Of a stretch of 64,000 bases of DNA, positions 13,039 through 30,808 are shown in pieces. The notes beneath the pieces are model-generated. The model saw nothing but the letters and a program-made list of their open reading frames with translations. It did not search any database and had not been told where the DNA came from. Both the position numbers and the translations under genes were made by a program. Origin of the DNA: Frankia sp. AiPa1 (GTDB taxonomy: Bacteria > Actinomycetota > Actinomycetes > Frankiales > Frankiaceae); the NCBI RefSeq assembly GCF_023243075.1, contig NZ_JALKFZ020000127.1, forward strand, positions 62,001-126,000, given 5' to 3'. How positions within the stretch are numbered: position 1 is the stretch's first letter; the number at the start of each line of letters is the position of its first letter.

Positions 13039-13052
13039 ACTGACCGGTCAGT
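13039..13052. promoter_or_regulatory. palindromic operator ACTGACCGGTCAGT
   Basis: A perfect 14-bp palindrome midway in the divergent SDR/NTF2-like promoter region. Its GACCGGTC core matches the operator family at 15346, 18308 and 26117, suggesting the same or a related TetR regulator. Confidence 0.65.
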
Positions 13053-13079
13053 CCAATCCTGGAAGAAAGGCCCGGGCCG

Positions 13080-13475
13080 ATGAGCACCGAGTACGCCGAC
13101 GCCGCCGCCCGCATCCGCGACACGATCGCGACCTACGCGCAGGCGGTGGACGACGGTCGCACCGAGGACATCGTCGCCACGTTCCTGCCCGACGGGTGGG
13201 CGTCGTTCCCGGGCGCGGACATCGCCCGCGGCCACGACGGAATCCGCGCGACGTACGCGGCCCTCCCCCCCGGGCGGGCCCAGCGGCACCTCGTGGGCAA
13301 CACGCTGATCACCGAGTTCGACGGCGACGCCGCCACGGCCACGAGCGACCTGGTCTTCCTGACCAGGGGCAAGGAGGGCCACTGGGCGGTTCGCATCGTC
13401 GGCCGCTACACCGACCACCTGCGCCGCAGCGGCAACGCCTGGCTGTTCGCCAGCCGCGAGCTTGTGTTCATCTGA
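13080..13475 (+). CDS. SnoaL/NTF2-like protein
   Basis: A 131-residue single-domain protein of the NTF2-like cone fold. The helix IRDTIATYAQAVDDGRTEDI followed by a short strand and DGWASF is the SnoaL_4 pattern. The group includes isomerases, dehydratases and small hydrolases acting on steroids or polyketides, as well as non-enzymatic members. Conserved acidic and His positions (D25, H71-like) are compatible with catalysis, but no specific reaction can be assigned. It is divergent from the SDR gene with a shared operator, so both may act on the same compound. Confidence 0.85.
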   Translation: MSTEYADAAARIRDTIATYAQAVDDGRTEDIVATFLPDGWASFPGADIARGHDGIRATYAALPPGRAQRHLVGNTLITEFDGDAATATSDLVFLTRGKEGHWAVRIVGRYTDHLRRSGNAWLFASRELVFI

Positions 13476-13542
13476 CCGCGCCGCCCAGCACGGCCCGCCG
13501 GCTCCGGCCGGCCGGCCGGCCGTGCTGGGCACGGCGCGGTCA
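13473..13542. terminator. long bidirectional hairpin containing both stop codons
   Basis: An 11-bp outer stem (13473-13483 with 13532-13542) and a 12-bp inner stem (13484-13495 with 13518-13529) are separated by a 2-nt bulge. The outer arms are the stop codons and last bases of the convergent NTF2-like and Baeyer-Villiger-type genes. Confidence 0.8.
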
Positions 13543-15123
13543 GTCGAGGAAGCCCGCATAGCCGCCCTCGATGGTCTTCGCCATCACCCGCAGCAGCACC
13601 GGCCGTCCCGCCGGGTTCAGCAGGAACCGGCGGGGCTTGCCGGGCACGTTCGTCCCGTAGTACTGGCCGTGCTCCACGAAGGTGGACCGCGGCAGCGCCT
13701 TCTCCATCGTGGCCGCCCAGCGCCGCTCGGTCTCGAGCGGGACCTCGACCCGGCGCTCGCCCCGGTCTCGGGCGTGGTTGAGCAGGTCAGCAACGAAGTC
13801 GACCTGGTCCCCGCCGTAACGGGGGTTGTTCCCGGCCGCCCCGTGCGGACCGCCGGGGAAGAAGAAGTTGGGGAAACGGTGGCACATAACGCCCAGGAAG
13901 GTACGCGGGCCGTCCGCCCAGTACTCGTTCAGGGGCAGCCCGTCCACGCCGCGGATGCCCATCCGCCGCATCGCACCCGTGCCGAAGTCGAAGCCGGTGG
14001 CCCAGACGACGAGGTCGAAGGGACGCAGGCCGTCCGTCGTCTCGATGCCGGTCTCGGTGAGGCGGAGCATCGGTGTGCGGCGGGTGGAGACGAGCTCGAC
14101 GTTCGGCCGGTTGAACATCTCGTAGTACCCGGTGACGAACGGCGGCCGTAACCCGCCATAGCCGTGGTCAGGCACGAGCAGGTCGGCGACCGCCGGGTCC
14201 GCGACGAGGGCGCGGATCTTCTCCTCGAGGAACTCGCACCACTCCCCGTTCGCCTTCGGGTCGAGCATCATGTCCTCGTAGTTGCTGCTCAGCTTGGCGA
14301 ATCCGGGGCTGTTCCAGATGGTCTCGTAGAACTCCCAGCGCTGTTCCTTCGAATCATCGAAGGTCCGCCGCCCGGAGGACTCGTGCAGGAATCCGGCGAC
14401 CGCCACGGCGAGGGCGTCGCGGATCCGGGTGAAGCTCTCTTTCAGTTCGGCCTGTTGGCGCGCGGTGATGGGATGGTTGTTCAGCGGCGTGCACCACGAC
14501 GGGGTGCGCTGGTACACCGTCACCGACGCCGCCTGTTCGGCGACCACGGGCGCGATCTGTACCCCGCTGGACCCGGTGCCGACCACCGCGATCCGCCGGC
14601 CCTCGATGGCCACCGGCGAGTCCGGCCAGGCTCCGGTGTGGTGCTGCTCCCCCGCGAAGGTCTCCCGGCCGGGCACATCCGGGTACTGCGGCACGGACAG
14701 CACGCCGGTCGTGCTGATCAGGTAGGTCGAGCGGGCCTCGAAGCCGTCCTCGGTCCGCGTCGTCCACGTCCGCGTGGCCTCGTCCCACTCAGCGGACGTG
14801 ACCCGGCTGCCCAGGCGGATGTAACGGCGCAGATCGAACCGGTCGACCACATGATTGAGGTAACGCTCGGTCTCGGGCTGGCCGGCGAACTCCTCGCTCC
14901 ATTCCCAGTCCCGCCAGAGCTGTTCGGAGAACAGATAGCCGTAGGTGTAGCTCTCCGAGTCGAAGCGGCAGCCCGGATAGCGGTTCCAGTACCACGTTCC
15001 TCCGACGCCGCCGCCCTGTTCCAGCAACAGCACGGAGTACCCGTCGCGGCGGGCGCGGTAGAGCTGGTTGATCCCGAGAACGCCCGCTCCCACGATCACG
15101 ATGTCGACGTCAGCCTGATCCAT
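13540..15123 (-). CDS. Baeyer-Villiger-type flavin monooxygenase
   Basis: A 527-residue class B flavoprotein monooxygenase that would insert oxygen next to a ketone using FAD, NADPH and O2. The first dinucleotide motif is VGAGVLG (11-17) and the second VGTGSSG (181-187). The BVMO fingerprint FxGxxxHxxxWP is intact (F156, G158, H162, W166). It is closest in style to cyclohexanone/cyclopentadecanone-type enzymes. The start at MDQADVDIVIVGAG has a poor ribosome site (GGGAG only 2 nt away); an upstream ATG at 15186 would add 21 non-family residues. An operator-like TTGTACCGTTTGGTCCA lies 38 bp upstream. The substrate is probably a cyclic or long-chain ketone. Confidence 0.93.
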   Translation of the reverse strand: MDQADVDIVIVGAGVLGINQLYRARRDGYSVLLLEQGGGVGGTWYWNRYPGCRFDSESYTYGYLFSEQLWRDWEWSEEFAGQPETERYLNHVVDRFDLRRYIRLGSRVTSAEWDEATRTWTTRTEDGFEARSTYLISTTGVLSVPQYPDVPGRETFAGEQHHTGAWPDSPVAIEGRRIAVVGTGSSGVQIAPVVAEQAASVTVYQRTPSWCTPLNNHPITARQQAELKESFTRIRDALAVAVAGFLHESSGRRTFDDSKEQRWEFYETIWNSPGFAKLSSNYEDMMLDPKANGEWCEFLEEKIRALVADPAVADLLVPDHGYGGLRPPFVTGYYEMFNRPNVELVSTRRTPMLRLTETGIETTDGLRPFDLVVWATGFDFGTGAMRRMGIRGVDGLPLNEYWADGPRTFLGVMCHRFPNFFFPGGPHGAAGNNPRYGGDQVDFVADLLNHARDRGERRVEVPLETERRWAATMEKALPRSTFVEHGQYYGTNVPGKPRRFLLNPAGRPVLLRVMAKTIEGGYAGFLD

Positions 15124-15160
15124 GTCTCCCACAGCCACATCGCAGCGGTGCACAGCAGTT

Positions 15161-15177
15161 TTGTACCGTTTGGTCCA
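15161..15177. promoter_or_regulatory. operator-like site TTGTACCGTTTGGTCCA
   Basis: It is upstream of the Baeyer-Villiger gene. It keeps the TTGTACC and GGTC arms of the 15346/18308 site with a changed centre. Confidence 0.5.
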
Positions 15178-15345
15178 CTGGTGCACTGACGCTAGCCCCC
15201 GCCCCCAGAGGCGTCAAGGCTTGCCCGGCCGACCAGCCGGAACGCCACGCCACCGGGGATGGGACACGGGTCGCCGCGACCGGTACCGCCGCGGGATCGG
15301 CGTGGCCAGTCGTTGAACCGCCGGCCCGATCGGACTACGGTCACG

Positions 15346-15365
15346 TTGTTTGTACCGGTCGGTCA
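15346..15365. promoter_or_regulatory. operator TTGTTTGTACCGGTCGGTCA
   Basis: This 20-mer, 67 bp upstream of the acyl-CoA ligase start, is identical to that in front of the TetR gene at 18308-18327. The TACCGGTCGGTC part is near-palindromic, as expected for a TetR dimer. Confidence 0.7.
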
Positions 15366-15432
15366 GGATCAGGTCGGCCAAGGTGAGGCCGGCCAAGGTG
15401 AGGTCGGTCCGGAAGAAGCCGAGGCAGGCGAG

Positions 15433-16983
15433 ATGAGCACCGCGGACATGAACTGGGTCGGCGTTCTCGAGCACCATGCGGCCCGCACCCCGGACCGGCC
15501 GTTCGCCGTGCAGGACGGCGACGTCGTCAGCTACCGGGGTGCCCTCGACCGGGCCGCCGCCATCGCCGCCGGCCTGCGGGTCCGGGGCGTCGCGGCGGGT
15601 GACGTCGTGGCGCTGCTCGCCCACAACAGTATCGACTTCCTGACGACGATCTTCGCCGCGAACCACCTCGGCGCGGTCGTGATGCCGCTGAACTGGCGGC
15701 TCGCCGCGCCGGAACTCGCCTACATCCTTGAGCACGCGCAGGCCCGCGTCCTGGTCGCGGACGCCGAACTGGCCGCGCTCGGCGCCGACGCCGCGCGGGC
15801 GCTCCCGGCCCTCGATCGCGTCCTGATCGGGCGCCAGGACCGGGCCGGCTGGGTGCGCCTCGACGACGTCGCCGATGGCACGGCCCCGCCGGTCGAACGC
15901 GCCCCAGCCGCCGGCGACGACCTCCAGCGGCTCATGTACACCTCCGGCACGACCGGGCGCCCCAAGGGCGTGATGATCACCCACGCCAACCTCGCGTGGA
16001 AGAACTACGCGCACACCGCCGAGTTCGGCCTCACCGGCGCGGACATCGGTCTGGCCTGCGGCCCGCTCTACCATGTGGGCGCGCTCGACCTGGTGACCAC
16101 GTCGATCATCTCGGCGGGCGGATCGACCCACGTCCACCCGGTGTTCGACGCCGCCCGGGTGGTCGACGACATCGAGTCGGCCCGGATCACCGTGGTCTGG
16201 CTGGCCCCGGCGATGGTCCGCGCCATCCTGGACCTACCCGGCATCGAGACGCGCGACCTGTCCTCGGTCCGCCTGCTCATCGGCGGCGGCGAGAAGATGC
16301 CGCTTCCCCTCATCGACCGCATCGAGCGGATCTTCCCGTCAGCCTGGTTCGCCGACGCCTACGGCCTGACCGAGACGGTCTCCGGCGACACCTTCCTGGA
16401 CGCCGCGTCCATCCGCGCCAAGCGCGGCAGTGTCGGCCGCACCTGCCTGTACCTGGAGCTCGACATCTGGGACGCGCAGGGCCGTCCGCTGCCGGCGGGC
16501 GAGTCCGGCGAGATCGTCCTGCGCGGGCCGAAGGTGTTCCGCGGATACTGGCGCGACCCCGCGGCGACCGAGCGCGCCTTCGCCGGCGGCTGGTTCCACA
16601 CCGGCGACATCGGCGTGCGCGACGCCGACGGCTACGTCTTCATCGTCGACCGACTGAAGGACATGATCCTCTCCGGTGGCGAGAACATCGCCGGTTCCGA
16701 GGTCGAGCGGGTGCTCTACGAGCACGCCGACGTGCGCGAGGCTGCCGTGGTCGGTCGGCCCGACCCCCGCTGGGGCGAGGTTCCGGTGGCGTTCGTCGCG
16801 CTGCGCCCTGGATCCGGCGTCGCCGAGCAGGAACTCCTGGAACACTGCCGCGGCCAGCTCGCCCGGTTCAAGGTGCCCCGCGCCGTCACCTTCGTCGACG
16901 CGCTCCCCCGCAATCCGTCGGGCAAGATCCTCAAGCGCGAGCTGCGCGCCCTCATTGACCAGCCCGACGGCCAGCCCGTGTAG
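15433..16983 (+). CDS. AMP-dependent acyl-CoA synthetase/ligase
   Basis: A 516-residue ANL-superfamily enzyme that activates a carboxylic acid as acyl-AMP and then acyl-CoA. The P-loop-like MYTSGTTGRPKG is near residue 167, the ADAYGLTET motif near 310, TGD in FHTGDIGVRDADGY near 390, and the catalytic Lys in NPSGKILKREL near 500. These are the core motifs of FadD/medium-chain or aryl-CoA ligases. The ATG follows GAGG by 8 nt. An operator of the TetR (18392) family lies upstream. It probably supplies the CoA ester for the dehydrogenases nearby; the acid is unknown. Confidence 0.94.
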   Translation: MSTADMNWVGVLEHHAARTPDRPFAVQDGDVVSYRGALDRAAAIAAGLRVRGVAAGDVVALLAHNSIDFLTTIFAANHLGAVVMPLNWRLAAPELAYILEHAQARVLVADAELAALGADAARALPALDRVLIGRQDRAGWVRLDDVADGTAPPVERAPAAGDDLQRLMYTSGTTGRPKGVMITHANLAWKNYAHTAEFGLTGADIGLACGPLYHVGALDLVTTSIISAGGSTHVHPVFDAARVVDDIESARITVVWLAPAMVRAILDLPGIETRDLSSVRLLIGGGEKMPLPLIDRIERIFPSAWFADAYGLTETVSGDTFLDAASIRAKRGSVGRTCLYLELDIWDAQGRPLPAGESGEIVLRGPKVFRGYWRDPAATERAFAGGWFHTGDIGVRDADGYVFIVDRLKDMILSGGENIAGSEVERVLYEHADVREAAVVGRPDPRWGEVPVAFVALRPGSGVAEQELLEHCRGQLARFKVPRAVTFVDALPRNPSGKILKRELRALIDQPDGQPV

Positions 16984-16984
16984 C

Positions 16985-17032
16985 AGCCAGGCTGGGGCCG
17001 CTGGCCCCGCTGACGGCCGCCCCAGCCTGGCT
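16985..17032. terminator. terminator hairpin downstream of the acyl-CoA ligase
   Basis: A perfect 14-bp stem (16985-16998 with 17019-17032) with a 20-nt loop, immediately after the ligase stop. Confidence 0.75.
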
Positions 17033-17084
17033 GAGGGCTGGCCCCGCTGACGGCCGGCCCAGAGCCACGGCGTCGCCGTGGACC

Positions 17085-17117
17085 GCGTGTCCGGGCTACC
17101 CGACCGCCCGGACACGC
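17085..17117. terminator. second terminator hairpin of the convergent pair
   Basis: A perfect 12-bp stem (17085-17096 with 17106-17117) with a 9-nt loop, 8 bp past the stop of the convergent cyclase gene. Confidence 0.75.
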
Positions 17118-17125
17118 GATCCGGG

Positions 17126-18175
17126 CTACACGGTGGCGACGGGGGTGAGCGGACTGCCGGCGGTGCCGGGCAGGCGCAGCGGCGGGGCGGTGAGCAGGAA
17201 GCTGGTGCGACCGTGGGCGCGCAACCAGGCGGCGAGCTCGTGCAGGTACCACAGCTCGCCGAGGGGCACACCGAGCTTGAACAGGCACAGGTGGTGGATC
17301 GGCAGCAGGGTGTGCGGTTCGCGGCTCGCGGGGGCCCAGCCCTCGACGGCGTAGTTGTCGGCGACCAGTGCCGACATCCCGGACTCGACGATCCACGCGA
17401 GCACGTCGTCGTCCATCGCGTCGAGGTACGGGTACATCGCCTGGATGCGGGCGGCGTCGGGCTGGCCGTTCCACTCGAGGATCTTCGTCGCGAACCCGGT
17501 GTGCAGCAGCACGATGTCCCCGGGCCGCACCTCCACCCCGTCGGCGTCGATGATGTCGCGCAGCGTCCGCCAGCCGACCGGGCGCCATTCCTCGGTGTGG
17601 TCGAGATGGTGCGCGATGTCGATCAGTACGGCCCGGCCCTGCACGCCGTGCGCGGCCATGTGCTCCAGGCCCAGGCGGCGGGCGAAGCTCACACTGCCGC
17701 TGCCGTCGCCCTTGGCGTCGGGCGCCGGCCCGACGACGTCCTCGCCAGGGCGGAAGCCGTTGTAGTACACCGGCTCGGCGACGCCATCGCCGTCCGCGTC
17801 GAACAGCGCGCCCTGGTGGACGAGCGCGTCCCACTGCGTCGAGTACTGCAGCCAGAGCGTCACGACGTCGTCGGACCACAGGTCGGTGAACGAGCGGTGG
17901 ATCGAGTCCCGAGCGACGACGTTGTAGAAGGTGTCGGGCTTGCGGGCGAGGTCCTCGGTGGGGCGCAGGATCGGCGGGTAGCGACGCTGGTTCAGCGAGC
18001 TGCCGCCGGGCAGGTCCAGCGGCAGGCTCAGCGAGAACGACCGGCCCGCCCGCACCTCCCGCACGCCCTCGAGCACCTTCTCCGACGTGACCAGGTTGAT
18101 CCGGCCGAGCTCGTCGTCGTCGCCCCAGTCACCCCAGGTGGAGCCGTCCGGACGTTGCTTCCAGCGCTTCGCCAC
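17126..18175 (-). CDS. cyclase-family metal-dependent hydrolase (kynurenine formamidase-like)
   Basis: A 349-residue protein of the cyclase family (PF04199), whose members are metal-dependent amide, lactone or ester hydrolases. Visible family segments are a Trp-Gly-rich N-terminus (TWGDWGDDDELGRINL), the QWDALVHQG segment in place of the usual STHWDAP-type metal site, DIAHH near residue 205, VEVRPGDIVLLHTGF near 235, and a late HHLCLFKLGVPLGE. The GTG start follows GGGAG by 5 nt. It is divergent from the TetR gene, with the TTGTACCGGTCGGTCA operator between them. A ring-opening hydrolysis step, for example of a lactone made by the Baeyer-Villiger enzyme, is an attractive inference. Confidence 0.86.
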   Translation of the reverse strand: MAKRWKQRPDGSTWGDWGDDDELGRINLVTSEKVLEGVREVRAGRSFSLSLPLDLPGGSSLNQRRYPPILRPTEDLARKPDTFYNVVARDSIHRSFTDLWSDDVVTLWLQYSTQWDALVHQGALFDADGDGVAEPVYYNGFRPGEDVVGPAPDAKGDGSGSVSFARRLGLEHMAAHGVQGRAVLIDIAHHLDHTEEWRPVGWRTLRDIIDADGVEVRPGDIVLLHTGFATKILEWNGQPDAARIQAMYPYLDAMDDDVLAWIVESGMSALVADNYAVEGWAPASREPHTLLPIHHLCLFKLGVPLGELWYLHELAAWLRAHGRTSFLLTAPPLRLPGTAGSPLTPVATV

Positions 18176-18307
18176 CGTTACTCCCTCGCGTCCAGCCCGG
18201 CCGCGCGCCCCGGGGACCGGCCCCGCGGTGCCGCGCGCGAGACCCGCGGGGCGGACGGTCCGCGCACGTCCTGGGACCGGCCGCCTTCCGTCCCGGCGAA
18301 CCTAGCC

Positions 18308-18327
18308 TTGTTTGTACCGGTCGGTCA
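18308..18327. promoter_or_regulatory. operator TTGTTTGTACCGGTCGGTCA
   Basis: This lies between the divergent cyclase and TetR genes and is identical over 20 bp to 15346-15365. Its position fits autoregulation by the TetR protein encoded just downstream. Confidence 0.75.
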
Positions 18328-18391
18328 ACTTCTGGACCCGCGTATTCTGGCCCACGAAGACGCAGCCAGTGCCGGCCGGCGAAACGGAGCG

Positions 18392-19048
18392 ATGTCAACC
18401 GCCATGACCGATGTCCAGGTTCGGCGCAGCGCCAAGTGGGAGCTCCGGCGCAGGGCGATCATCGACACCTCCGCGCGCGTCTTCGCCCGGCGGGGATTCC
18501 ACGCCACCAGCACCGCGGAGCTCTGCGAGGCCAACGAGGTCGGCAAGGGCGCGCTGTACTACTACATCGGCTCCAAGGAGCAGTTGCTCGTCGCGATCCA
18601 CGACCGGGTGATGGACGAGGTGATGCTCGGTGCCGACCGGGTGGCCACGGCCGGGGGCACACCGCCCGAGCGGCTCGCGCGCCTCGGCACCGAGCTGCTC
18701 CACGTCATCCACCGCTACCCCGACCACGTGTGGGTCTTCCTGCACGAGTTCCCGGCACTGACCGGCACCAACGCCGAGACGTTCCGGGACCGGCGCCGGG
18801 AGTACGAGACCCGCGTCGAGCAGGTCCTCGAGGAGGGCCGACGCTCCGGGGACTTCCGGGCCATCGACGCCCCGATGGCATCCAAGGCATGGCTCGGCAT
18901 GCACAACTACACATACCTGTGGATGCGCACCGACGGACGGGTCGCCGTCGAGGATCTGGCGGCGCAGTACGCGGACATCTTCGTGCGCGGCATCGCCAGC
19001 GGCCCCGTGCCTGGCCCGCTGGCGGATCCCGGTCACGGCGCCGCGTAG
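18392..19048 (+). CDS. TetR-family transcriptional regulator
   Basis: A 218-residue TetR-type repressor. The helix-turn-helix lies near residues 25-60 (ARVFARRGFHATSTAELCEA, then GKGALYYYIGSKEQLL), and a helical ligand-binding domain follows. It resembles the KstR/FadR-like TetR group, which answers to CoA esters, but the ligand is unknown. The ATG has GGAG only 2 nt away; a second ATG 4 codons in is possible. The operator at 18308 and copies near five other promoters suggest that it governs much of the 13-26 kb region. Its end overlaps the convergent SDR gene by 16 bp. Confidence 0.92.
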   Translation: MSTAMTDVQVRRSAKWELRRRAIIDTSARVFARRGFHATSTAELCEANEVGKGALYYYIGSKEQLLVAIHDRVMDEVMLGADRVATAGGTPPERLARLGTELLHVIHRYPDHVWVFLHEFPALTGTNAETFRDRRREYETRVEQVLEEGRRSGDFRAIDAPMASKAWLGMHNYTYLWMRTDGRVAVEDLAAQYADIFVRGIASGPVPGPLADPGHGAA

Positions 19049-19866
19049 CCTCCGTCGACGACGAGGGCCGAGCCCGTCGTCCACCGTGCGGCGTCGCTGG
19101 CGAGGTAGGCGTAGGCGCCGACGAGATCGCCGGGTGTGCCGAGGCCGAGCGGATGCTTCGCCGCGATCGCCTCCACCGCGGTCGCCGGCAACGTCTCGTG
19201 CATGGCGGACAGGAAGGTGCCGGGACAGACCGCGTTCACCCGGATGCGGTCGCGGGCGTACTCGACCGCGGCCACCTTCGCAAGATGGATGACGGCGGCC
19301 TTGGTGACGCAGTACGGGGCGGCGTGCGACCAGGCGGTGAGCCCGGCCACCGAGGCGGTGAGAACGATCGACCCGCCGCCGCCCTGGCGCATCGGGCCGA
19401 CGGCGGCGTGGACCGCGTTGACCGCCCCCAGGACGTTGATCCGGTAGGAGCGATCCCAGTCCGCCGTCGCGAGGTTGTGGATGCGCCCGTTCGGCGCGAG
19501 CACGCCCGCGTTGCTGATGAGCACGTCGAGCCGCCCGAAGCGCTCCACGGCGAGCCGCACCACCGCCTCGACCTGCTCCCGCTCGCTGACGTCGACCAGC
19601 GCCGTCGCCACCTGCGCACCGTCGACGGCCACACCGCCGACGGCCCCACCACCGCCAGCCGTACCGCCGACGGCCGCACCGCCGACCGCCGCACCGCCGA
19701 CGGCCACGCCGTCGTTGATGCTCTCGACCGTCGCGGCCAGGGCCGCCTCGCTCACGTCGCCGAGGACGACAGCGGTGCCGGCCTCGGCCGCGAACCTGCG
19801 GGCGAGCGCACTGCCGAGGGCGCCGCCCGCGCCGAGAAGCACCACCACGCGTGGCTGATCGGACAT
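19033..19866 (-). CDS. SDR-family oxidoreductase with Gly/Ala/Val insert
   Basis: A 277-residue short-chain dehydrogenase. The dinucleotide site is GAGGALGSALARRFA (12-26), with NAG near residue 122 and a Ser-Tyr-Lys triad (TASVAG, then YCVTKAA). Between strand 3 and the Asp-containing turn (residues ~53-82) there is a low-complexity insert of repeated AVGGA-type units made by a 15-bp DNA repeat, which minimal SDRs lack. It ends in the classical GSALVVDGGYAAP. The 37-bp spacing behind the next SDR gene suggests co-transcription. The substrate is unknown. Confidence 0.9.
   Translation of the reverse strand: MSDQPRVVVLLGAGGALGSALARRFAAEAGTAVVLGDVSEAALAATVESINDGVAVGGAAVGGAAVGGTAGGGGAVGGVAVDGAQVATALVDVSEREQVEAVVRLAVERFGRLDVLISNAGVLAPNGRIHNLATADWDRSYRINVLGAVNAVHAAVGPMRQGGGGSIVLTASVAGLTAWSHAAPYCVTKAAVIHLAKVAAVEYARDRIRVNAVCPGTFLSAMHETLPATAVEAIAAKHPLGLGTPGDLVGAYAYLASDAARWTTGSALVVDGGYAAP
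19621..19710 (+). repeat. 15-bp tandem repeat inside SDR gene (about 6 units)
   Basis: Imperfect units of GCCGACGGCCGCACC run in frame through the SDR coding sequence (complementary strand) and encode the Gly/Ala/Val insert. Confidence 0.88.
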
Positions 19867-19903
19867 CTGATCCCCTGTTCCGCGGTGCCCCGTCCGGGCC
19901 CCG

Positions 19904-20683
19904 CTATTTCAGCAGGTAGCCGCCGTCGACGGACAGGACGGCGCCGGTGACGAACGCGGCCGCCTCGGAGGCCAGGAACAGGTAGGCGCCGGCGAGATCG
20001 GCCGGATGGCCCCAGCGGCCCTGGGCCGTGTGGTTCAGGATGGACTGCTCGAGGCGGTCGTTGCTCTTCCAACCGGCGGCCAGGGGCGAGTCGAACCAGC
20101 CGGGCGCGACCACGTTCACCGTGATCCCCGCGGCGGCGAGATCCAACGCCAGCGCCTTGGACATTCCCACCAGCCCCGCCTTGGACGCGCTGTAGGCGGC
20201 AAGCCCGCGGGCCGGCCGCTCCCCCAGCACCGAACCGGTGAAGATGAGCCGGCCGCCCTCGCCCATCACCCGGGCGGCGGCACGCGCGCCGAGGAACGCG
20301 CCGGTGAGGTTGACGTCCAGGACATCCCGCCACACCGCCGGGTCGGTCTTCAACGGCCCGCCGACCGCCGGGGAGATCCCGGCGTTGCAGATCCACACGT
20401 CGATCCCGCCCCAGGCGGCCACCGTGGCGTCGGCGACCGACTCGTTGAAGGCCTCGTCCCGCACATCCCCGCTGAACCGCAGCACCGGGCCGGGCAGGGC
20501 ATCCCCGACCGACTTGAGGTCGGCCTCGGTGCGCGCGACCAGGGAGAGGTGGGCGCCGGCACGGGAGAACGCGTGCGCGAGCAGCTCCCCGAGGCCGCGG
20601 CCGGCCCCGGTCAGCACCACCCGCCGACCACGCACATCTCCAGGGCCGGGGAACTGTGCCGGGATCTCGATCCGCTCGGTCAT
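19904..20683 (-). CDS. SDR-family oxidoreductase
   Basis: A 259-residue short-chain dehydrogenase with LTGAGRGLGELLAHAFSRAGA at the nucleotide site, an Arg after strand 2 (VARTEADL) that suggests NADP(H), NAG near residue 100, and the catalytic TGSVLG ... YSASKAGLVGMSKAL. It ends in the usual VLSVDGGYLLK. The ATG has GGAG 6 nt upstream. It sits between the ferredoxin gene and the second SDR on the same strand, so a P450-ferredoxin-SDR-SDR transcript is plausible, with alcohols made by the P450 then oxidised (inference). Confidence 0.91.
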   Translation of the reverse strand: MTERIEIPAQFPGPGDVRGRRVVLTGAGRGLGELLAHAFSRAGAHLSLVARTEADLKSVGDALPGPVLRFSGDVRDEAFNESVADATVAAWGGIDVWICNAGISPAVGGPLKTDPAVWRDVLDVNLTGAFLGARAAARVMGEGGRLIFTGSVLGERPARGLAAYSASKAGLVGMSKALALDLAAAGITVNVVAPGWFDSPLAAGWKSNDRLEQSILNHTAQGRWGHPADLAGAYLFLASEAAAFVTGAVLSVDGGYLLK

Positions 20684-20830
20684 CGCCGGCTCCAGCCCGG
20701 CGACCGCGCGTCCCGGGGCGCCCGGGACTCCGCGTCCCCCCGGTCTTCCCGGCGCCGCGGGTCCGCCTGGACCGCCCCGCCGCGCGGGCCGTCCCGCCAC
20801 CCGGCCGGCAAGTCCCCGTACCGGTCGGCG

Positions 20831-21025
20831 TCAGACACCGTGGACCGAGATCGCCGTGGTCGGGCAGCCCTGGGCGGCGTCCAGCAGCGCCGCGTCGGTG
20901 CCGCCGTCCGGGTCAAGCACGATCGCGATGTCGTCCTCGTCCTGGCCGAAGACCGCCGGCGCATAGTGCATGCACTGCCCGGACCCCATGCACCGGTCCC
21001 GGTCGATCCGGATCTCGCGTGCCAC
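20831..21025 (-). CDS. 3Fe-4S ferredoxin (P450 redox partner type)
   Basis: A 64-residue ferredoxin with Cys12-X5-Cys18 (CMGSGQC) and Cys54-Pro (GCPTTAI), the single-cluster 3Fe-4S pattern of actinobacterial P450 ferredoxins. An acidic stretch GQDEDDIAIV lies between. The GTG start has GAGG 7 nt upstream and gives the normal length; an ATG 6 codons upstream is an alternative. It lies downstream of the P450 at 21225-22553 on the same strand and is its likely electron donor. The reductase is not in the window. Confidence 0.92.
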   Translation of the reverse strand: MAREIRIDRDRCMGSGQCMHYAPAVFGQDEDDIAIVLDPDGGTDAALLDAAQGCPTTAISVHGV

Positions 21026-21043
21026 CGCCGTTCCTCTCGTCAT

Positions 21044-21103
21044 GGTCCTGGCCCACCGTTTCCTGGCCCACAGTTTCCTGGCCCGTCGCCTCCTGGCCGC
21101 ACC
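21044..21103 (+). repeat. 15-bp tandem repeat between P450 and ferredoxin (4 units)
   Basis: Units at 21044, 21059, 21074 and 21089 share the core TCCTGGCCC with variable ends (for example TTTCCTGGCCCACAG). Confidence 0.85.
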
Positions 21104-21155
21104 TGTCCAGGCGGCGCTGAGCTGGTCCACACCGGACCGGTCGCGCTCCGCCGGC

Positions 21156-21200
21156 CGGTTCGCGGCCGGTCGGTTCGCGGCCGGTCGGTTCGCGGCCGGC
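21156..21200 (+). repeat. 15-bp tandem repeat between P450 and ferredoxin (3 units)
   Basis: Three copies of CGGTTCGCGGCCGGT, the last differing by one base. They form a second array in the same 199-bp gap. Confidence 0.92.
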
Positions 21201-21224
21201 CGGACCGTGCCGTCGCGGCGGGTG

Positions 21225-22553
21225 TCACGCGACACCGGTCAGCTCCACATGCAGCCGGGTCAGGCCGCGGAACAGGTAGGTGGGCATGTACTCGTAGCGC
21301 CGGGCACCGACCGGCCCGTGTTCCTGCACGGAGATCGCGATCTCGGACGTGCGGTCGAACAGCCGCTCCAGCACGACCCGCACCTCCGAGCGGGCCAGGG
21401 GCGCGCCGACGCAGGTGTGCGTGCCATGGCCGAACGCCAGGTGCCGGCGGGAGTTGGCCCGCTCCAGGCGCAGCTCGTCCGGCTGGTCGAACTGGCGGGG
21501 GTCCCGGCCGGTCGCGGTGTTCATCAGCAGCACGACCGTGCCGGCGGGAAGGTCCACGCCCCCGACCCGCGTCGATTTGCGGACCAGGCGGAACGCACCC
21601 TTGATCGGCGACTCCAGGCGCAGCGTCTCCTCGACGAACCGCGGGATGAGCTCGCGGTCGTCGCGCAGCTGGCGCTGCAGCTCGGGGTCGTCGCCGAGGA
21701 TCTGCAGGCAGGCGCCGAGCAACCGCACGGTGGTCTCCTGGCCGGCGGCGAACATGTTGGCGCCGATCCGGGCGACGTCGAGCAGGTCCGGCGTGGTGCC
21801 GTCGGGGAACGTCGCCTGCGCCATGCCGGTGAGGACGTCGCCGCGGGGCGCGGCGCGGCGCTCGCCGATGCGCTCGATGAAGTAGTCGTAGATCGGATCC
21901 AGCGTGTGGTGGGAGTCGTGCTTTTCCGCGAGGCTGCCCGGCAGCTCACCGATGCCGGTCCGCTCCAGCAGCATCTGATGGTCCTCTTCGGGCACCCCCA
22001 GCAGGTCGGCGATGACCAGCAGCGTGTAGGGCTGGGCGAAGTCGTTGACGAACTCGCACCGGCCCACCTCGAGGGTCGCGTCGAGCTGGCGGTCGGCGAG
22101 CCGCCACATGAACTCCTCGTTCTCCTTCAGCCGCTTCGGGGTGATCAGCCCGGCCAGCACCGCCCGGTGCGCGGTGTGCTTCGGCGGGTCGAAGGTGACC
22201 AGCTGGTCGCTCTGCGGCAGCGCGTCGCGGTGCGCCTCGATCAGCGCACTGATGTCGTCGCCCTGCCCCTTCAGCTCGACCGGGAACGGCGGGCGGGGGC
22301 CCGCGACGATGTTGCAGGATGAGAAGGAGTCGGTGTCCCGCAGGATGGTCAGCGCCTCCTCCCAGCCCGAGACCATGGCGACACCGTAGGTCGGCTCGAT
22401 CCAGATCGGCCGGTCGCGCAGCAGGAAGCTGAAGTAGTCCCACGGGTTGACCGCGACATCGCGGTCCCGGAAGTAGTTCAGCGTGCTGAAGTCCCTCGGA
22501 GTGCTCGAGTCGTTCGGAGTGCTCGAGTCGTTCGGGCTTCGCTGTTCCGTCAT
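21225..22553 (-). CDS. cytochrome P450
   Basis: A 442-residue soluble bacterial P450 monooxygenase. The haem-binding loop FGHGTHTCVGAPLARSE carries the Cys ligand near residue 386, the I-helix has AAGQETT near residue 270, and the K-helix ETLRLESP follows. The ATG has GGAG 8 nt upstream. The first ~20 residues contain a short repeat (PNDSST) from an 18-bp DNA repeat. With the downstream 3Fe-4S ferredoxin it forms the usual actinobacterial pair. It is related in sequence to the P450 at 54475 (shared KRLKENEEF/KRLRENEEF and AGQETT segments). The substrate is unknown. Confidence 0.95.
   Translation of the reverse strand: MTEQRSPNDSSTPNDSSTPRDFSTLNYFRDRDVAVNPWDYFSFLLRDRPIWIEPTYGVAMVSGWEEALTILRDTDSFSSCNIVAGPRPPFPVELKGQGDDISALIEAHRDALPQSDQLVTFDPPKHTAHRAVLAGLITPKRLKENEEFMWRLADRQLDATLEVGRCEFVNDFAQPYTLLVIADLLGVPEEDHQMLLERTGIGELPGSLAEKHDSHHTLDPIYDYFIERIGERRAAPRGDVLTGMAQATFPDGTTPDLLDVARIGANMFAAGQETTVRLLGACLQILGDDPELQRQLRDDRELIPRFVEETLRLESPIKGAFRLVRKSTRVGGVDLPAGTVVLLMNTATGRDPRQFDQPDELRLERANSRRHLAFGHGTHTCVGAPLARSEVRVVLERLFDRTSEIAISVQEHGPVGARRYEYMPTYLFRGLTRLHVELTGVA
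22483..22536 (+). repeat. 18-bp tandem repeat in P450 5' end (about 3 units)
   Basis: GTGCTCGAGTCGTTCGGA is at 22501, with a one-base variant at 22519 and a more diverged copy at 22483. It encodes the SSTPND repeats. Confidence 0.85.
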
Positions 22554-22572
22554 CGTGACGTCTCCGGTTCGG

Positions 22573-24600
22573 TTAGGCACGGGCCGACTCGCGCACAGCG
22601 GCGGCGATGCGGTCCACGTCCGGCAGCCAGGCATGTTCGAGGGACGGGGCGTACGGCGCCGGAGTCGGCTCGGCGCCCACGCGGATGACCGGCGCGTCCA
22701 GCGTCCAGAAGCCCTCGCGCACCGCCGCCGCCGCGAGTTCCGCGCCGACCCCGAACGGGGTCACCGCCTCGTGCGCGACGACGAGCCGGTTGGTCCTGGC
22801 CAGTGACGCGAGCACGGTGTCGTAGTCCAACGGCGTGATCGTGCGCAGGTCGATGACCTCGACGCTGATCCCCTCGGCGGCCAGCGCCTCGGCGGCGGAC
22901 AGGCAGTCGTGCACCATCCGCGAGTAGGACACCAGCGTGACGTCCGTGCCCGGCCGGCGCACGATCGCCCGGCCGAGCGGCACCAGCGCGTCCGGCTCCG
23001 GGCGTGGCCCCTTGCGGCCGTAGAGCAACCGGTTCTCGATGAAGATCACCGGGTTGGGGTCGCGGATGGCGGCGCGCAGCAGCCCGTAGGTGTCCGCCGG
23101 GGTGGACGGCATGACCACGGTGAGCCCCGGCAGGTGCGCGAGCAGTGCCTCGAGGCTCTGCGAGTGCTGGCTGCCGGACGAGCGGCCCGCCCCGAACTGG
23201 GTACGAATGACCAGCGGCAGCTCCACCGCACCGCCGGTCATGAAGCGCAGCTTCGCAGCCTGGTTCATGATCTGATCGAGGCAGACGCCGATGAAGTCGA
23301 GGTACATGACCTCGACCACCGGCCGCATCCCGGCCATCGCCGCGCCGACCGCCGCCCCGACGACGGCGCTCTCCGAGATCGGCGTGTCGCGCACCCGGCC
23401 GGGATAGCGGGCGGCGAGCCCTCGGGTGAGCCCGAACACGTTGCCGCCGGCACCGACGTCGATGCCGGCGATAAGGACGTCGGGGTCATGTGCGAGCTCG
23501 TGGTCGAGCGCATCGTGCACCGCGTCCATCGTCCGGAAGACCTCGCCGGTGGGCTCGGGTGGCTCGGGTCGGTCGATGCGCGGGCTCGTGACGAAGTGGT
23601 GCAGCGTGGCCGGCGCGGGCTCGGCGGCGCTCGACGCGGTGGCCTGCGCCTTGTCGATCTGCTCGTCGACCTCGCGGTCGATCGCCGCGACCTGCCGCGG
23701 CGCCAGGCGCCGGGCGTGGACGACCAGCGGGTCGCGGGCCTTCCAGGTGTCGACCTCGGTGGCGTCGCGGTACCGCTCGGGGTCGCCCTCGTAATGGCCG
23801 TGCCAGCGGTAGGTCTCGGCCTCCAGCAGCACCGGGCGGGCCCCGCCGCGCAGTTCGGCGACCAGCCGCGTGGTCGTCCGCGCCACGGCGACGACGTCGT
23901 TGCCGTCGACGTGCGCGTACCGGATCCCGTAGCCACGGGCCCGGTCGGACAATGGCGCGCGGTGCTGGTCGGCCTCCGCCGAGAACTCGGCGTAGTGGTT
24001 GTTCTCGCACAGGAAGATCACCGGAAGGTCCCAGACCGCGGCGAGGTTCACCGCCTCGTGGAACATTCCCTGCCCCACCGCGCCGTCGCCGAAGAACGCC
24101 ACCACCACGCCGCCGGTGCCGCGCAGCCGCGCCGCCGTGGCCGCGCCGGTCGCGATCGGCAGGCCGGCCGCGACGATGCCGTTCGCGCCGAAGATCCCGC
24201 GCCGCGGGTCGGCGATGTGCATCGAGCCACCGCGGCCCCGGTTCGTCCCGGTCTCGCGGCCCATCAGCTCGGCGAACATCTCGGTGACGTCAAGGCCCTT
24301 GGCGATGCAGTGCCCGTGGCCACGATGGGTGGAGGTGATCACATCCCGCTCGTCGAGCGGCCAGCACGCCCCGACGGCGCTGGCCTCCTGGCCGATCGAC
24401 AGGTGCAGGAAGCCGGGGATCCGGCTGTCCCGGTAGAGCGCCGCCGCCGACTCCTCGAACCGCCGGATCAGCCGCATCCGCCGGTACATCTCACCCAGCG
24501 CGGCCGCGTCCAGCTCAGGCTGCACCACCTCGGACTGCACCGCCTCGGACTGCGCGGCTTCGGACTGCACAGCCTCGCCCCTCCCCTCGGTGGAACCCAC
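22573..24600 (-). CDS. fused E1 alpha-beta 2-oxoacid/acetoin-type dehydrogenase
   Basis: A 675-residue thiamine-diphosphate enzyme in which the alpha and beta chains of a branched-chain ketoacid, pyruvate or acetoin dehydrogenase E1 are joined. The alpha half (to ~350) has the GDGAVGQGMFHEA ... ENNHYAEFS thiamine-binding motif and RGRGGSMH. The beta half starts near residue 370 (EVFRTMDAVHDALDHEL) and includes EVMYLDFIGVCLDQIMNQAAK and FGVGAELAAAAV. The GTG start follows GGGAG by 6 nt; the Gln-Ser-Glu-rich tail comes from a 15-bp repeat. No E2 or E3 genes are nearby. It is 19 bp behind the P450 on the same strand. The substrate is unknown. Confidence 0.9.
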   Translation of the reverse strand: MGSTEGRGEAVQSEAAQSEAVQSEVVQPELDAAALGEMYRRMRLIRRFEESAAALYRDSRIPGFLHLSIGQEASAVGACWPLDERDVITSTHRGHGHCIAKGLDVTEMFAELMGRETGTNRGRGGSMHIADPRRGIFGANGIVAAGLPIATGAATAARLRGTGGVVVAFFGDGAVGQGMFHEAVNLAAVWDLPVIFLCENNHYAEFSAEADQHRAPLSDRARGYGIRYAHVDGNDVVAVARTTTRLVAELRGGARPVLLEAETYRWHGHYEGDPERYRDATEVDTWKARDPLVVHARRLAPRQVAAIDREVDEQIDKAQATASSAAEPAPATLHHFVTSPRIDRPEPPEPTGEVFRTMDAVHDALDHELAHDPDVLIAGIDVGAGGNVFGLTRGLAARYPGRVRDTPISESAVVGAAVGAAMAGMRPVVEVMYLDFIGVCLDQIMNQAAKLRFMTGGAVELPLVIRTQFGAGRSSGSQHSQSLEALLAHLPGLTVVMPSTPADTYGLLRAAIRDPNPVIFIENRLLYGRKGPRPEPDALVPLGRAIVRRPGTDVTLVSYSRMVHDCLSAAEALAAEGISVEVIDLRTITPLDYDTVLASLARTNRLVVAHEAVTPFGVGAELAAAAVREGFWTLDAPVIRVGAEPTPAPYAPSLEHAWLPDVDRIAAAVRESARA
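24524..24568 (+). repeat. 15-bp tandem repeat in E1 gene 5' end (3 units)
   Basis: Units at 24524, 24539 and 24554 share CTCGGACTGC-type sequence and encode repeated QSEAV in the N-terminal tail. Confidence 0.85.
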
Positions 24601-24704
24601 CGCCCGCTCCCCTCCTCCCCGCCACCCGGGCACGCGTCGCCGCCGGGCCCTGATGCCGGGGACGCCGTGCCGATGCCTTGACATTGGGCGACAGCGCGCC
24701 ATTC

Positions 24705-24722
24705 TTGTACCGCTCGTTCCAA
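24705..24722. promoter_or_regulatory. operator-like site TTGTACCGCTCGTTCCAA
   Basis: It lies between the divergent E1 and acyl-CoA dehydrogenase genes. It shares TTGTACCG and the second arm (TTC/GTC-CAA) with the 15161 and 18308 sites; the match is weaker than theirs. Confidence 0.4.
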
Positions 24723-24751
24723 AAAACAACCCTTTGCCGATGGACGGTGCC

Positions 24752-25909
24752 ATGGACTTCGATCTCCCCGCGGAGACACTCGCCCTGCAACGCGTCTGCC
24801 GTGCGTTCGCGGCCCGGGAAATCGAGCCGTACGCGGCCGACTGGAGCGAGCGCGAGTACTTCCCGCACGAGCTGTTCGGCCGGTTCGCCGAGCTCGGGAT
24901 CATGGGCATGCTCGTGGACGAGGAGTTCGGCGGGGCCGGCGCCGGCTATGTCTCCTACGTCGCGGTGATGGAGGCCATCGGGGGTGCCGACCAGTCGGTC
25001 GCCGCCGCGTGGAACGCCCACTCGACGATCGCGTCGCTGCCGCTGGCCGTCTTCGGCACACCGGAACAGAAGAAGCGCTGGCTCGTCCCGCTCGCCTCCG
25101 GCACCCATCTGGGCGCCTTCGGCCTCACCGAACCGACCGCGGGCTCGGACGCCGCGTCGATCCGCACCCGCGCGCAGCGCGACGGCGAGGGCTGGCGGAT
25201 CAATGGCACGAAGATGTTCATCACCAACGCCGGCACGCCGATCAGCCTCGGTGTGACCATCCTCGCGGTGACCGGCACCTCGCCGGACGGCCAGAAGCGC
25301 TACGGCACGTTCTTCATCCCTGACGGCACCCCCGGCTACACCAAGGGCGAGCCCCTGCGCAAGCTGGGCTGGCACGCCATGGACACCCGCGAGCTCGTCT
25401 TCCGCGACTGTTGGATCCCCGACGACCACCTCATCGGCGAGGAGGGTGCCGGGCTGCGCCAGTTCCTCGCCGTCCTGGACGCCGGACGGATCAGCGTGGC
25501 GGCGCTGGGCCTGTCGCTCGCACAGACCGCCCTCGACCTCGCCCTACGCCACGCGAGCGAGCGCGAGCAGTTCGGCAGCAAGCTCAACCGGTTCCAGGCG
25601 ATCGGCCACAAGCTCGCCGACATGGCCACCGAGGTCGAGGCCGCGCGGGCACTCGTGTACCGGGCGGCGTGGCTCGGCGACCAGGGTCGCCCCTTCGCCA
25701 CCGAGGCCGCGATGGCCAAGCTCTACGCCTCCGAGGTCGCCAACCGCGCCGCCAGCGCGAGCGTGCAGATCCACGGCGGCTACGGCTACGTCCGCGAGTC
25801 CGCGATCTCGCGGTTCTACGCGGACGCGAAGGTGCTGGAGATCGGCGAGGGCACCAACGAGATCCAGCGCAACGTCATCGCCCGCGCCCTGAGCCGCCCC
25901 CGACCGTGA
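24752..25909 (+). CDS. acyl-CoA dehydrogenase
   Basis: A 385-residue FAD-dependent acyl-CoA dehydrogenase catalysing alpha,beta-desaturation. Signature segments are GAFGLTEPTAGSDAAS (FAD/substrate loop, ~125-140), the ITNAGTP strand, EREQFGSKLNRFQAIGHKLADM, and QIHGGYGYVRESAISRFYADAKVLEIGEGTNEIQRN near the end, where the Glu of GEGTNEI is the usual catalytic base. An in-frame ATG 4 codons upstream is an alternative start; neither has a good ribosome site. It is divergent from the E1 gene. It likely works on CoA esters made by the ligase at 15433. Confidence 0.94.
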   Translation: MDFDLPAETLALQRVCRAFAAREIEPYAADWSEREYFPHELFGRFAELGIMGMLVDEEFGGAGAGYVSYVAVMEAIGGADQSVAAAWNAHSTIASLPLAVFGTPEQKKRWLVPLASGTHLGAFGLTEPTAGSDAASIRTRAQRDGEGWRINGTKMFITNAGTPISLGVTILAVTGTSPDGQKRYGTFFIPDGTPGYTKGEPLRKLGWHAMDTRELVFRDCWIPDDHLIGEEGAGLRQFLAVLDAGRISVAALGLSLAQTALDLALRHASEREQFGSKLNRFQAIGHKLADMATEVEAARALVYRAAWLGDQGRPFATEAAMAKLYASEVANRAASASVQIHGGYGYVRESAISRFYADAKVLEIGEGTNEIQRNVIARALSRPRP

Positions 25910-26116
25910 GCCGCCCGCGCCCTGATCCACCGCTGGCAGCCCTGATCTCCTCGACCGGCCCGCGGATCGCGCCCGAGGTCGGAACGCGGATACCCCCGTT
26001 CTGACCTCGAGCGATCCTCGTCAGCCCATCGCGCCACCACGGAAGGTAACTTTGGTGGCTGAAGGTTTGGTGTCAAACTGTCTTGACTCTGACCATGCGC
26101 TGGGGCCAGAATCACC

Positions 26117-26133
26117 TTGACCGGTCGGTACAA
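26117..26133. promoter_or_regulatory. operator TTGACCGGTCGGTACAA
   Basis: It lies 25 bp upstream of the amidohydrolase start. Its reverse complement TTGTACCGACCGGTCAA matches the 18308 site (TTGTACCGGTCGGTCAA) except at the two central bases, as expected for a symmetric operator read from the other side. Confidence 0.68.
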
Positions 26134-26158: not shown

Positions 26159-27406
26159 ATGACCAAGGACTTCGTCGTCTCGGCGGACTCGCACGTGCTC
26201 GAGCCCACGGACCTGTTCCGCACCCGCCTGCCGGCGCATCTTCGCGACCGAGCGGTGTGGGAGGAGGACTTCGAGGTGGAGCCGCTGGTCGAAGGCGGCC
26301 CACGGATCTACCGACGCCTGCACACGCCGGGCTTCGAGGGCTGGACGATCTCCCGCTACCGGCAGACCGGCGGCCGTATGCCCGAGGGCGATCCCGAACG
26401 GATCCTCGAGGACATGGACCTCGACGGCATCGACGCGACGCTGATGCACCCGAACCTGTCGATCTTCGGGCTCTACTCGGACGACCACGAGCTGTCGATG
26501 GCGCACGCCCGGGTCTACAACAGCTACCTGGTCGAGCGGTTCCTGCCGTTCGCGGACCGGATCCGCCCGACCTGCCCGATCCCGCTCACCGACGTCAACG
26601 ACGCCGTCGCCGAGATCGAGCGGGTGACGGGCGCCGGCTTCCGGGCGCTGCTGCTGCCGGGCGTCCCGCCGACCACCTACTGGGACCCCGCGCTCGACCG
26701 GGTCTGGGAGGCGGCGCGGCACGCCGGCGCGCAGATCTTCTTCCACACCCAGACCGGTGGCGTGAAGATGAAGAACCCGTCGTCGTCGACGATGCGGGTG
26801 GTCAAGGAGTCGGCCCGGCAGGTGAACCAGCCGGTCACGGCGAAGTCCGCCGCCGAGCGGCTCTACACCCAGGCGGTGCTGTCCACCCTGGTGCCGCAGA
26901 AGCTGATCTGCGAGCTGATCGGCGCCGGCGTCCCCGAGCGGTTCCCCGAGCTGCACTTCGGCCTGATCGAGTTCAACGCGCACTGGCTGTCCTCGCTGGT
27001 GGGCGCGATGGACAAGGCGTGGACCACCGGCATCGGGCAGGACACCGACTGGTGGATCGGCTCCTGGGACGACGAGGCCCCGGCGACCGCCGAGGGCCAG
27101 CAGACGATGTCGCGGCTGTTCCTGCTCAACGAGAAGTGGCCCTACCCGATGCTGCCCAGCGAGTATGTGCGGCGCCAGTTCCACATCTCCTTCCAGGACG
27201 ACCCGGCGGCGGTCGCCGCCCGCCACATCACCGGGGTCAGCTCGATCATCTGGGGCAACGACTACCCGCACGCCGAGGGAACCTTCCGGCACAGCCAGGA
27301 GCTCATCCGCACGCAGTTCGCCGACGTCCCGGACGACGAGCGCCGGGCGATCGTCGGCGGCACCCTGGCCGGCGTCCTCGGCTTCACCCAGCCGGCCCTG
27401 GCCTGA
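26159..27406 (+). CDS. amidohydrolase family 2 (ACMSD/TIM-barrel) protein
   Basis: A 415-residue metal-dependent TIM-barrel hydrolase or decarboxylase of the amidohydrolase_2 family (PF04909). The N-terminal SADSHVLEP is the family metal-binding start, LMHPNLSIFGLYSDD and LLLPGVPP follow, HTQ near residue 203 supplies a later metal His, and SSIIWGNDYPHAEGTF near residue 365 contains the conserved Asp. Such proteins are frequent in actinobacterial steroid and terpenoid gene regions, where they may hydrolyse or decarboxylate CoA-free acids; the reaction here is not known. It is preceded by a TetR-type operator and followed 5 bp later by the MarR gene. Confidence 0.9.
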   Translation: MTKDFVVSADSHVLEPTDLFRTRLPAHLRDRAVWEEDFEVEPLVEGGPRIYRRLHTPGFEGWTISRYRQTGGRMPEGDPERILEDMDLDGIDATLMHPNLSIFGLYSDDHELSMAHARVYNSYLVERFLPFADRIRPTCPIPLTDVNDAVAEIERVTGAGFRALLLPGVPPTTYWDPALDRVWEAARHAGAQIFFHTQTGGVKMKNPSSSTMRVVKESARQVNQPVTAKSAAERLYTQAVLSTLVPQKLICELIGAGVPERFPELHFGLIEFNAHWLSSLVGAMDKAWTTGIGQDTDWWIGSWDDEAPATAEGQQTMSRLFLLNEKWPYPMLPSEYVRRQFHISFQDDPAAVAARHITGVSSIIWGNDYPHAEGTFRHSQELIRTQFADVPDDERRAIVGGTLAGVLGFTQPALA

Positions 27407-30481: not shown

Positions 30482-30808
30482 CAGCACTCCCTGTGCCGGC
30501 CTCGTTCCACCGGCTGCACTAGAGGAAAGACGGCACCCGCGGCCATCCGATGGCCACGTTCTCGATGGCCACGTTCTCGATGCCCACGACCATGACGGGT
30601 CACGGTCACGGCCGCGGCGGCCAGGTCCACCCCGCCGATCAGCAAGCCTCCCGCGGCCACCGGCCGGGCGCCACGACTGTTCGGACGTTTCGCGGCGACC
30701 GCGGAGGTCTTGCGATTCACCGCACATCTATGTTAGTCACTTGGAGAACGTTAGTCAGTCGTAGAACACGCTCGACCAGTGAGAGCGGACTCGACGGGAG
30801 GCTGGGCC
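30482..30808. other. divergent promoter region, ALDH / Rieske operon
   Basis: A 327-bp gap. A 9-mer (CGTTCTCGATGGCCA type) is repeated near 30556-30585, and the GTTAGTCA direct-repeat operator is at 30732-30767. No gene is supported. Confidence 0.55.
30732..30767 (+). promoter_or_regulatory. 18-bp tandem operator, GTTAGTCA...AGAAC twice
   Basis: Two abutting 18-mers, GTTAGTCACTTGGAGAAC (30732-30749) and GTTAGTCAGTCGTAGAAC (30750-30767), are identical at 15 positions and lie 41 bp before the Rieske start. The same unit occurs at 34155. Confidence 0.68.

Follow-up and report, generated by a model that had tools for sequence, protein, structure and literature searches.

A single inverted-repeat operator occurs six times in five intergenic gaps, and never within genes, between positions 13039 and 26133 of a 64,000-base stretch of the Frankia sp. 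AiPa1 genome (hereafter the window; bases 62001-126000 of contig C11, in a genome of 6.98 Mb in 198 contigs). Read from the sequence, the TetR-family protein encoded at 18392 is very probably a local repressor of the surrounding catabolic cluster, of its own promoter and of a remote gene for a KstD-like dehydrogenase, with predicted binding to these operators and release by an acyl-coenzyme A (acyl-CoA). The evidence that the operator exceeds chance is mainly cross-species.

Six operator copies in the window

The six copies (Table 1) lie beside the genes for a short-chain dehydrogenase (SDR) and a SnoaL-like protein, a Baeyer-Villiger-type flavin monooxygenase (BVMO) and a CoA ligase, a cyclase and the TetR protein, a fused E1 dehydrogenase and an acyl-CoA dehydrogenase, and an amidohydrolase, all in intergenic DNA; an earlier sequence-only reading had placed such sites in front of catabolic genes. 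Sequence comparison confirmed its 20-mer TTGTTTGTACCGGTCGGTCA, identical at 15346 and 18308, while motif search and direct reading found correct coordinates for its related sites at 13039, 15161 and 24705 and for its core of reverse symmetry at 26117. The site at 13039 reads TTGGACTGACCGGTCA on the minus strand (13041-13056), with the perfect palindrome GACTGACCGGTCAGTC at its centre. Among the rows listed of the gap alignments for the window's family, the operators are preserved and the flanking sequence is variable; at the 24705 site, the same 16 letters recur in relatives L043, L044, L048 and L049. Across 68 distinct sites the symmetric consensus is TTG(T/G)ACCG(A/G)(T/C)CGGT(A/C)CAA, in which half-site positions 5, 6 and 8 (A, C and G) are 95-99% conserved.

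Within the window, TTGTACCGGTCGGTCA with up to 3 mismatches gave 6 matches versus 0.60 expected, a number reached in 0 of 100 shuffles. Five of these are the sites already noted at 15161, 15350, 18312, 24705 and 26118 (minus strand); the 13039 site has 4 mismatches to TTGTACCGGTCGGTCA and so lies outside this search. The sixth match, at 31383, falls in the coding sequence of a Rieske oxygenase and was attributed to chance, as was a high-scoring match ∼820 bases before the window, which falls inside a gene presumably resembling that for a cytochrome oxidase subunit. Across the 6.98 Mb of the own genome, the tighter pattern TTGTACCGNYCGKTCM matched 5 times (at four of the six cluster sites and at a promoter on contig C88), with 0 matches for the backwards control. 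The exact 16-mer, allowed 2 mismatches, gave 16 matches versus 3, three of the 16 being cluster sites and one the promoter of the KstD-like gene; among the remaining 12, gene context was viewed for C88:10907 alone.

The operator outside the family

A 20-column matrix built solely from the six window sites was then applied to loci found by a search for the TetR protein in GTDB genomes. The search returned 38 loci, from which four of Frankia/Pseudofrankia and one doubtful Chloroflexi locus were left out, and the 33 tested (L061-L093) lie outside the window's family by computed kinship, although L080 comes from a bin labelled Frankiaceae. At a score of at least 15, a threshold set after a first scan had been viewed, the matrix found 75 sites, with at least one in each of the 33 loci. 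A relative of a window gene begins no more than 350 base pairs (bp) downstream of 63 of the 75 sites, the assignment depending solely on a match of <40% identity in two cases at most; the other 12 are unassigned. Query-like genes cover 41% of the bases but hold only 1 of the 75 sites. Matches at chance level over coding DNA, which the sequence-only reading had named as a refutation, were not the outcome in these loci. At a score of at least 16 in 32 loci, the matrix marked 87 positions (palindromic doubles unmerged), whereas 40 column-permuted matrices averaged 1.75 and never exceeded 8.

Outside the family, a site within 400 bp upstream was found for 15 of 19 acyl-CoA dehydrogenase genes, 15 of 21 E1 genes, 15 of 22 SDRc genes and 6 of 7 BVMO genes. 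Within the family's genus g6, 15 stretches hold 38 sites, of which 37 precede relatives of regulon genes and 0 lie inside such genes. Among 396 genomes sampled from the phylum, G436 was the one further TetR carrier. Retrieved once the matrix was fixed, it has the cluster too, and sites occupy two divergent gaps, tetR/CoA ligase (score 18.6) and cyclase/amidohydrolase (14.6), with a weaker match (12.5) inside a P450 gene. A strict symmetric pattern had 0 matches in the 396 genomes, even in the TetR carriers G000 and G436, and is too strict for a test of co-occurrence.

Two further observations concern these loci. Strong operators are also seen ahead of further genes, some oxygenase-like by eye, in L084 (5640 and 9606), L085 (5680 and 9622) and L087 (279), and for that reason the regulon may be wider in some Acidimicrobiia-type loci. 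Locus L067, on a contig labelled Bifidobacterium breve (a metagenome-assembled genome), holds this cluster in Acidimicrobiia-like form, and its label is apparently wrong.

Co-occurrence with the TetR gene and a remote KstD-like gene

In the window's family, a TetR protein of at least 78% identity is present in 8 of 35 genomes. Strict sites number 2-6 each in 7 of the 8 carriers, versus 1-2 in 5 of the 27 non-carriers (six sites in all), against a background of 5 matches in the 35 genomes for the backwards control. All six non-carrier sites are inside naively called reading frames.

The promoter match on C88 leads to a gene outside the cluster. The operator there (3564-3581) ends 19 bases before the start of a gene for a KstD-like flavin adenine dinucleotide (FAD) dehydrogenase, which stays below cut-off even for its best NCBIfam models, 4-oxocyclohexanecarboxylate 2-dehydrogenase and 3-ketosteroid-delta-1-dehydrogenase, and whose nearest solved structure is 3-oxosteroid 1-dehydrogenase. 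Off-cluster strict sites in G030, G032 and G033 precede the same gene (∼90% identical). Each of the 7 family genomes (of 35) that have it is a TetR carrier, and G024, the one carrier without it, also lacks most of the cluster; in G034 the cluster is covered in part only. On one contig of G017, the KstD-like gene is at 0.70 Mb and the cluster far away, at 6.55 Mb. The promoters of 6 of the 7 carriers have a clear operator, and the site predicts that the KstD-like gene is a regulon member outside the window. In the Frankia promoter (L014) a second, weaker operator-like site is seen at 3540, 24 bases upstream of 3564.

These data bear on two proposals of the sequence-only reading. A single regulon is supported by an operator that accompanies this TetR in different genera and classes, precedes the same gene families there and comes close to background frequency in those family genomes that lack the TetR gene. 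The choice of the protein at 18392 as probable binder is likewise strengthened by the carrier counts and by the restriction of the KstD-like gene to TetR genomes.

Observations that weigh against a TetR regulon

Several results point the other way. Upstream sites are scarce for many of the genes outside the family: just 16 of 32 TetR genes have one within 400 bp, or 14 of the 32 with limits of 300 bp and score 14. Counts are also low for the CoA ligase (9 of 24), SDRa (3 of 19), cyclase (2 of 12), amidohydrolase (2 of 11), SDRb (1 of 21), P450 (0 of 6), SnoaL (0 of 4) and ferredoxin (0 of 2) genes; a location inside operons would fit such counts. The 33 loci are partly non-independent, several being metagenome bins of near relatives and two coming from one bin. 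The KstD-like promoter of G021 keeps its operator in part only. The TetR carrier G024 has 0 strict sites and a decayed cluster, with weaker sites near its TetR gene, an apparent case of pathway decay in which the regulator was left behind. The corresponding locus L046, from this smaller genome, keeps the TetR gene and weak sites and has only remnants of the CoA ligase gene, and the KstD-like gene is absent.

The last of these points comes from the own genome, where a scan like that proposed by the sequence-only reading, with a loose pattern fitted to the six sites, did no better than its control: 9 matches, 6 of them the sites themselves, versus 11 for the backwards control, as opposed to 5 versus 0 for TTGTACCGNYCGKTCM. 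Since the control gave more matches and six of the nine were the fitted sites, this loosest scan is circular and uninformative. Neither of its two matches outside the regulon, C123:33033 and C152:15076, lies in an obvious catabolic promoter context. The same count is what speaks for the sites being chance matches in high-GC (guanine plus cytosine) DNA, an explanation that we consider vanishingly improbable, as it is contradicted by the conservation across species, the intergenic position and the permuted-matrix controls.

The TetR protein, its relatives and its mode of action

The protein encoded at 18392 has the Pfam domains TetR_N (52.8 bits, cut-off 24) and TetR_C_24 (108.9 bits, cut-off 26.4), and its predicted model (mean predicted local distance difference test score, pLDDT, 87.7) has nine helices in an all-helical two-domain fold. 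NCBIfam equivalog models for TetR proteins stay below cut-off (FadR 51 versus 200 bits, ScbR-type 50.4 versus 150, SACE_7040 47.3 versus 250). Among the best 50 matches listed, the PDB fold matches of the model are TetR proteins, the nearest being PfmR, KstR2 and AibR.

AibR (PDB 5k7f/5k7h/5k7z), which we take to come from Myxococcus xanthus and which controls isovaleryl-CoA synthesis, is 30% identical and matches in fold with isovaleryl-CoA and operator DNA bound; the likeness is at the protein level. KstR2 of Mycobacterium tuberculosis (PDB 4w97/4w1u) is a fold match at 22-23% identity among the best 50. Its operator, AAGCAAGNNCTTGCTT, is unlike the Frankia consensus, and on this difference and the low identity we rejected the identification of the Frankia protein as KstR2. 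Excerpts of PMC13176608 describe KstR2 as governing the last steps of cholesterol degradation and binding cholesterol-CoA derivatives, so that the likeness is that of a CoA-ester-released repressor of ring degradation.

The best fold match is PfmR (TTHB023) of Thermus thermophilus HB8 (PDB 3vpr), with 27-28% identity over ∼185 columns among the best 50 matches. Excerpts of PMC7022988 give its operators as CTGACCGATCGGTCAG (2 nM), CCTACCGACCGGTCGG (0.3 nM) and CTTACCGACCGGTTGG (0.4 nM) and the genes that it represses as acyl-CoA metabolism genes, including acyl-CoA dehydrogenases and a CoA ligase. The core ACCG-NN-CGGT of the 68-site consensus is nearly the same as in these measured sites. However, PfmR belongs to another phylum and has other target genes: the arms of the Frankia operator extend to TTGT...ACAA, and its targets include BVMO, P450, fused E1 and hydrolase genes. 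We therefore rejected orthology with PfmR, given an identity of 27-28% and differing targets, and regard the Frankia protein as PfmR-like in its working only.

The shared core does raise the question of whether a different regulator could bind the operator, or a set of PfmR/KstR2-like TetR paralogues, leaving the neighbouring TetR as a passenger or one of several binders. The core is common to other TetR proteins, and the excerpts of PMC7022988 have Thermus PfmR and SbtR overlapping in their sites. Also in its favour is G029, which lacks this TetR and has a 36% homologue: a good site (L107:795) lies there near the start of an SDR gene, early in the frame and ahead of a later candidate start. 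Against this, strict sites track this TetR within the family, and its recognition-helix region, G51-Y58, is mostly invariant across 36 operator-keeping homologues. We consider such an arrangement improbable.

Under repression by the neighbouring TetR, a TetR dimer would bind a pair of inverted 8-base half-sites, TTGTACCG-NN-CGGTACAA, with variation tolerated. Through its occupation of promoter DNA it would keep its own promoter, those of the 12-27 kb cluster and the remote KstD-like gene repressed until a CoA thioester formed from the pathway substrate, perhaps by way of the CoA ligase at 15433, released it. The data show the sites, how they are conserved, that they stand ahead of genes and that they co-occur with this TetR; from these we infer that the protein binds there, as a dimer, that it represses and does not activate, and that its ligand is an acyl-CoA. 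The CoA ester is our guess because the TetR model is nearest to PfmR, KstR2 and AibR with isovaleryl-CoA. The promoter layout is consistent with blocking: outside the family, a TANNNT hexamer directly 3′ of the acyl-CoA dehydrogenase operator appears in 10 of 18 rows, with the start codon close behind, and in the amidohydrolase gap of four relatives TTGAC-like and TAGACA hexamers are immediately 5′ of the operator. Since the operators coincide with promoter-like hexamers or lie inside them, the favoured mode of repression is a block of RNA polymerase.

The same layout argues against the protein being an activator. Such a role, or the sensing of another small molecule (a free acid, a lactone or cyclic di-AMP, c-di-AMP) rather than an acyl-CoA, seems to us rather unlikely. 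It draws on the c-di-AMP-binding DarR proteins among the structural relatives of the TetR model (best 50 listed) and on a ligand class that is unreadable from sequence, whereas CoA esters are the ligands of AibR and KstR2, the closest relatives for which a ligand is known (for KstR2, excerpts of PMC13176608). As a predicted acyl-CoA-released repressor, the regulator would join the known acyl-CoA-type TetR repressors, and its switch is of a familiar kind.

Cluster genes and the pathway

The genes of the cluster are listed in Table 1. The nearest solved structures of the BVMO are phenylacetone monooxygenase, OTEMO and steroid monooxygenase; those of the amidohydrolase, PtmU3 and DitZ, we take to be diterpenoid enzymes. 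The tetR and SDRb genes are convergent and their ends overlap by 16 bases (19033-19048). Between the P450 and ferredoxin genes, at 21150-21215, is a short tandem repeat of GGCCGGTCGGTTCGC that looks like repeated operator half-sites. After the regulon, 27815-32098 encodes an MhpB-like class III extradiol dioxygenase (above its NCBIfam cut-off), an aldehyde dehydrogenase and the Rieske oxygenase, and the match at 31383 is the lone operator-like match there. A second TetR gene, at 33412-34149, is outside the conserved cluster. Clustering of naive open reading frames merged unlike proteins and served only to look for extra core genes.

Table 1. Operators and genes of the cluster, in window coordinates
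Feature	Position	Strand	Remarks
SDRa, short-chain dehydrogenase	12062..12991	-	
Operator, SDR (minus)/SnoaL-like (plus) gap	13039..13056	-	Aligned with 5 relatives
SnoaL/NTF2-like protein	13080..13475	+	
Baeyer-Villiger-type flavin monooxygenase (BVMO)	13540..15123	-	
Operator 1 of BVMO/CoA ligase gap	15161..15178	+	Aligned with 5 relatives
Operator 2 of BVMO/CoA ligase gap	15350..15367	+	66 bases 5′ of ligase start; aligned with 5 relatives
Acyl-CoA ligase	15433..16983	+	
Cyclase-family (PF04199) hydrolase	17126..18175	-	
Operator, cyclase/tetR divergent gap	18312..18329	+	Autoregulatory position; core kept in 6 of 6 aligned relatives
tetR	18392..19048	+	TetR_N and TetR_C_24; probable repressor of the regulon
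SDRb, short-chain dehydrogenase	19033..19866	-	
SDRc, short-chain dehydrogenase	19904..20683	-	
4Fe-4S-type ferredoxin	20831..21028	-	
Cytochrome P450	21225..22553	-	Nearest solved structure CYP150A6
Fused E1 alpha-beta thiamine-dependent dehydrogenase	22573..24600	-	Start codon uncertain
Operator, E1 (minus)/acyl-CoA dehydrogenase (plus) gap	24705..24722	+	
Acyl-CoA dehydrogenase	24740..25909	+	Start possibly 24752
Operator, upstream of amidohydrolase gene	26116..26133	-	Aligned with 4 relatives
Amidohydrolase	26159..27406	+	Nearest solved structures PtmU3 and DitZ

The sequence-only reading went on from a single regulon to a single pathway, which is likely and a fair inference from the co-conserved gene set. 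The steps may comprise CoA activation, acyl-CoA dehydrogenation, ring dehydrogenation by the KstD-like protein, oxygenation by the P450 and by the Baeyer-Villiger enzyme, and the action of a PtmU3/DitZ-like hydrolase. The fused E1 may cleave a carbon-carbon bond, its E2/E3 partners not being in the cluster. That the substrate is alicyclic and terpenoid- or steroid-like is a guess and the least certain part of our reading. In an open-access subset of the literature no title among those listed concerned such a regulon, and in the 20 listed of 496 papers matching the operator strings only the 8-letter string occurs, in work that is unrelated by title.

Tentatively, we propose that Frankiaceae and mostly uncultured Acidimicrobiia have in common an undescribed catabolic pathway for a natural product that is alicyclic and perhaps terpenoid, and that a single subfamily of acyl-CoA-sensing TetR proteins controls it through an operator of its own. 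This operator offers an entry to the unnamed pathway: it links about a dozen enzyme genes whose order varies between lineages, and it adds the remote KstD-like gene that gene order alone misses. The TetR protein could act as a biosensor for the inducing compound, and in this way the pathway of hard-to-culture Acidimicrobiia of soil and freshwater could be named.

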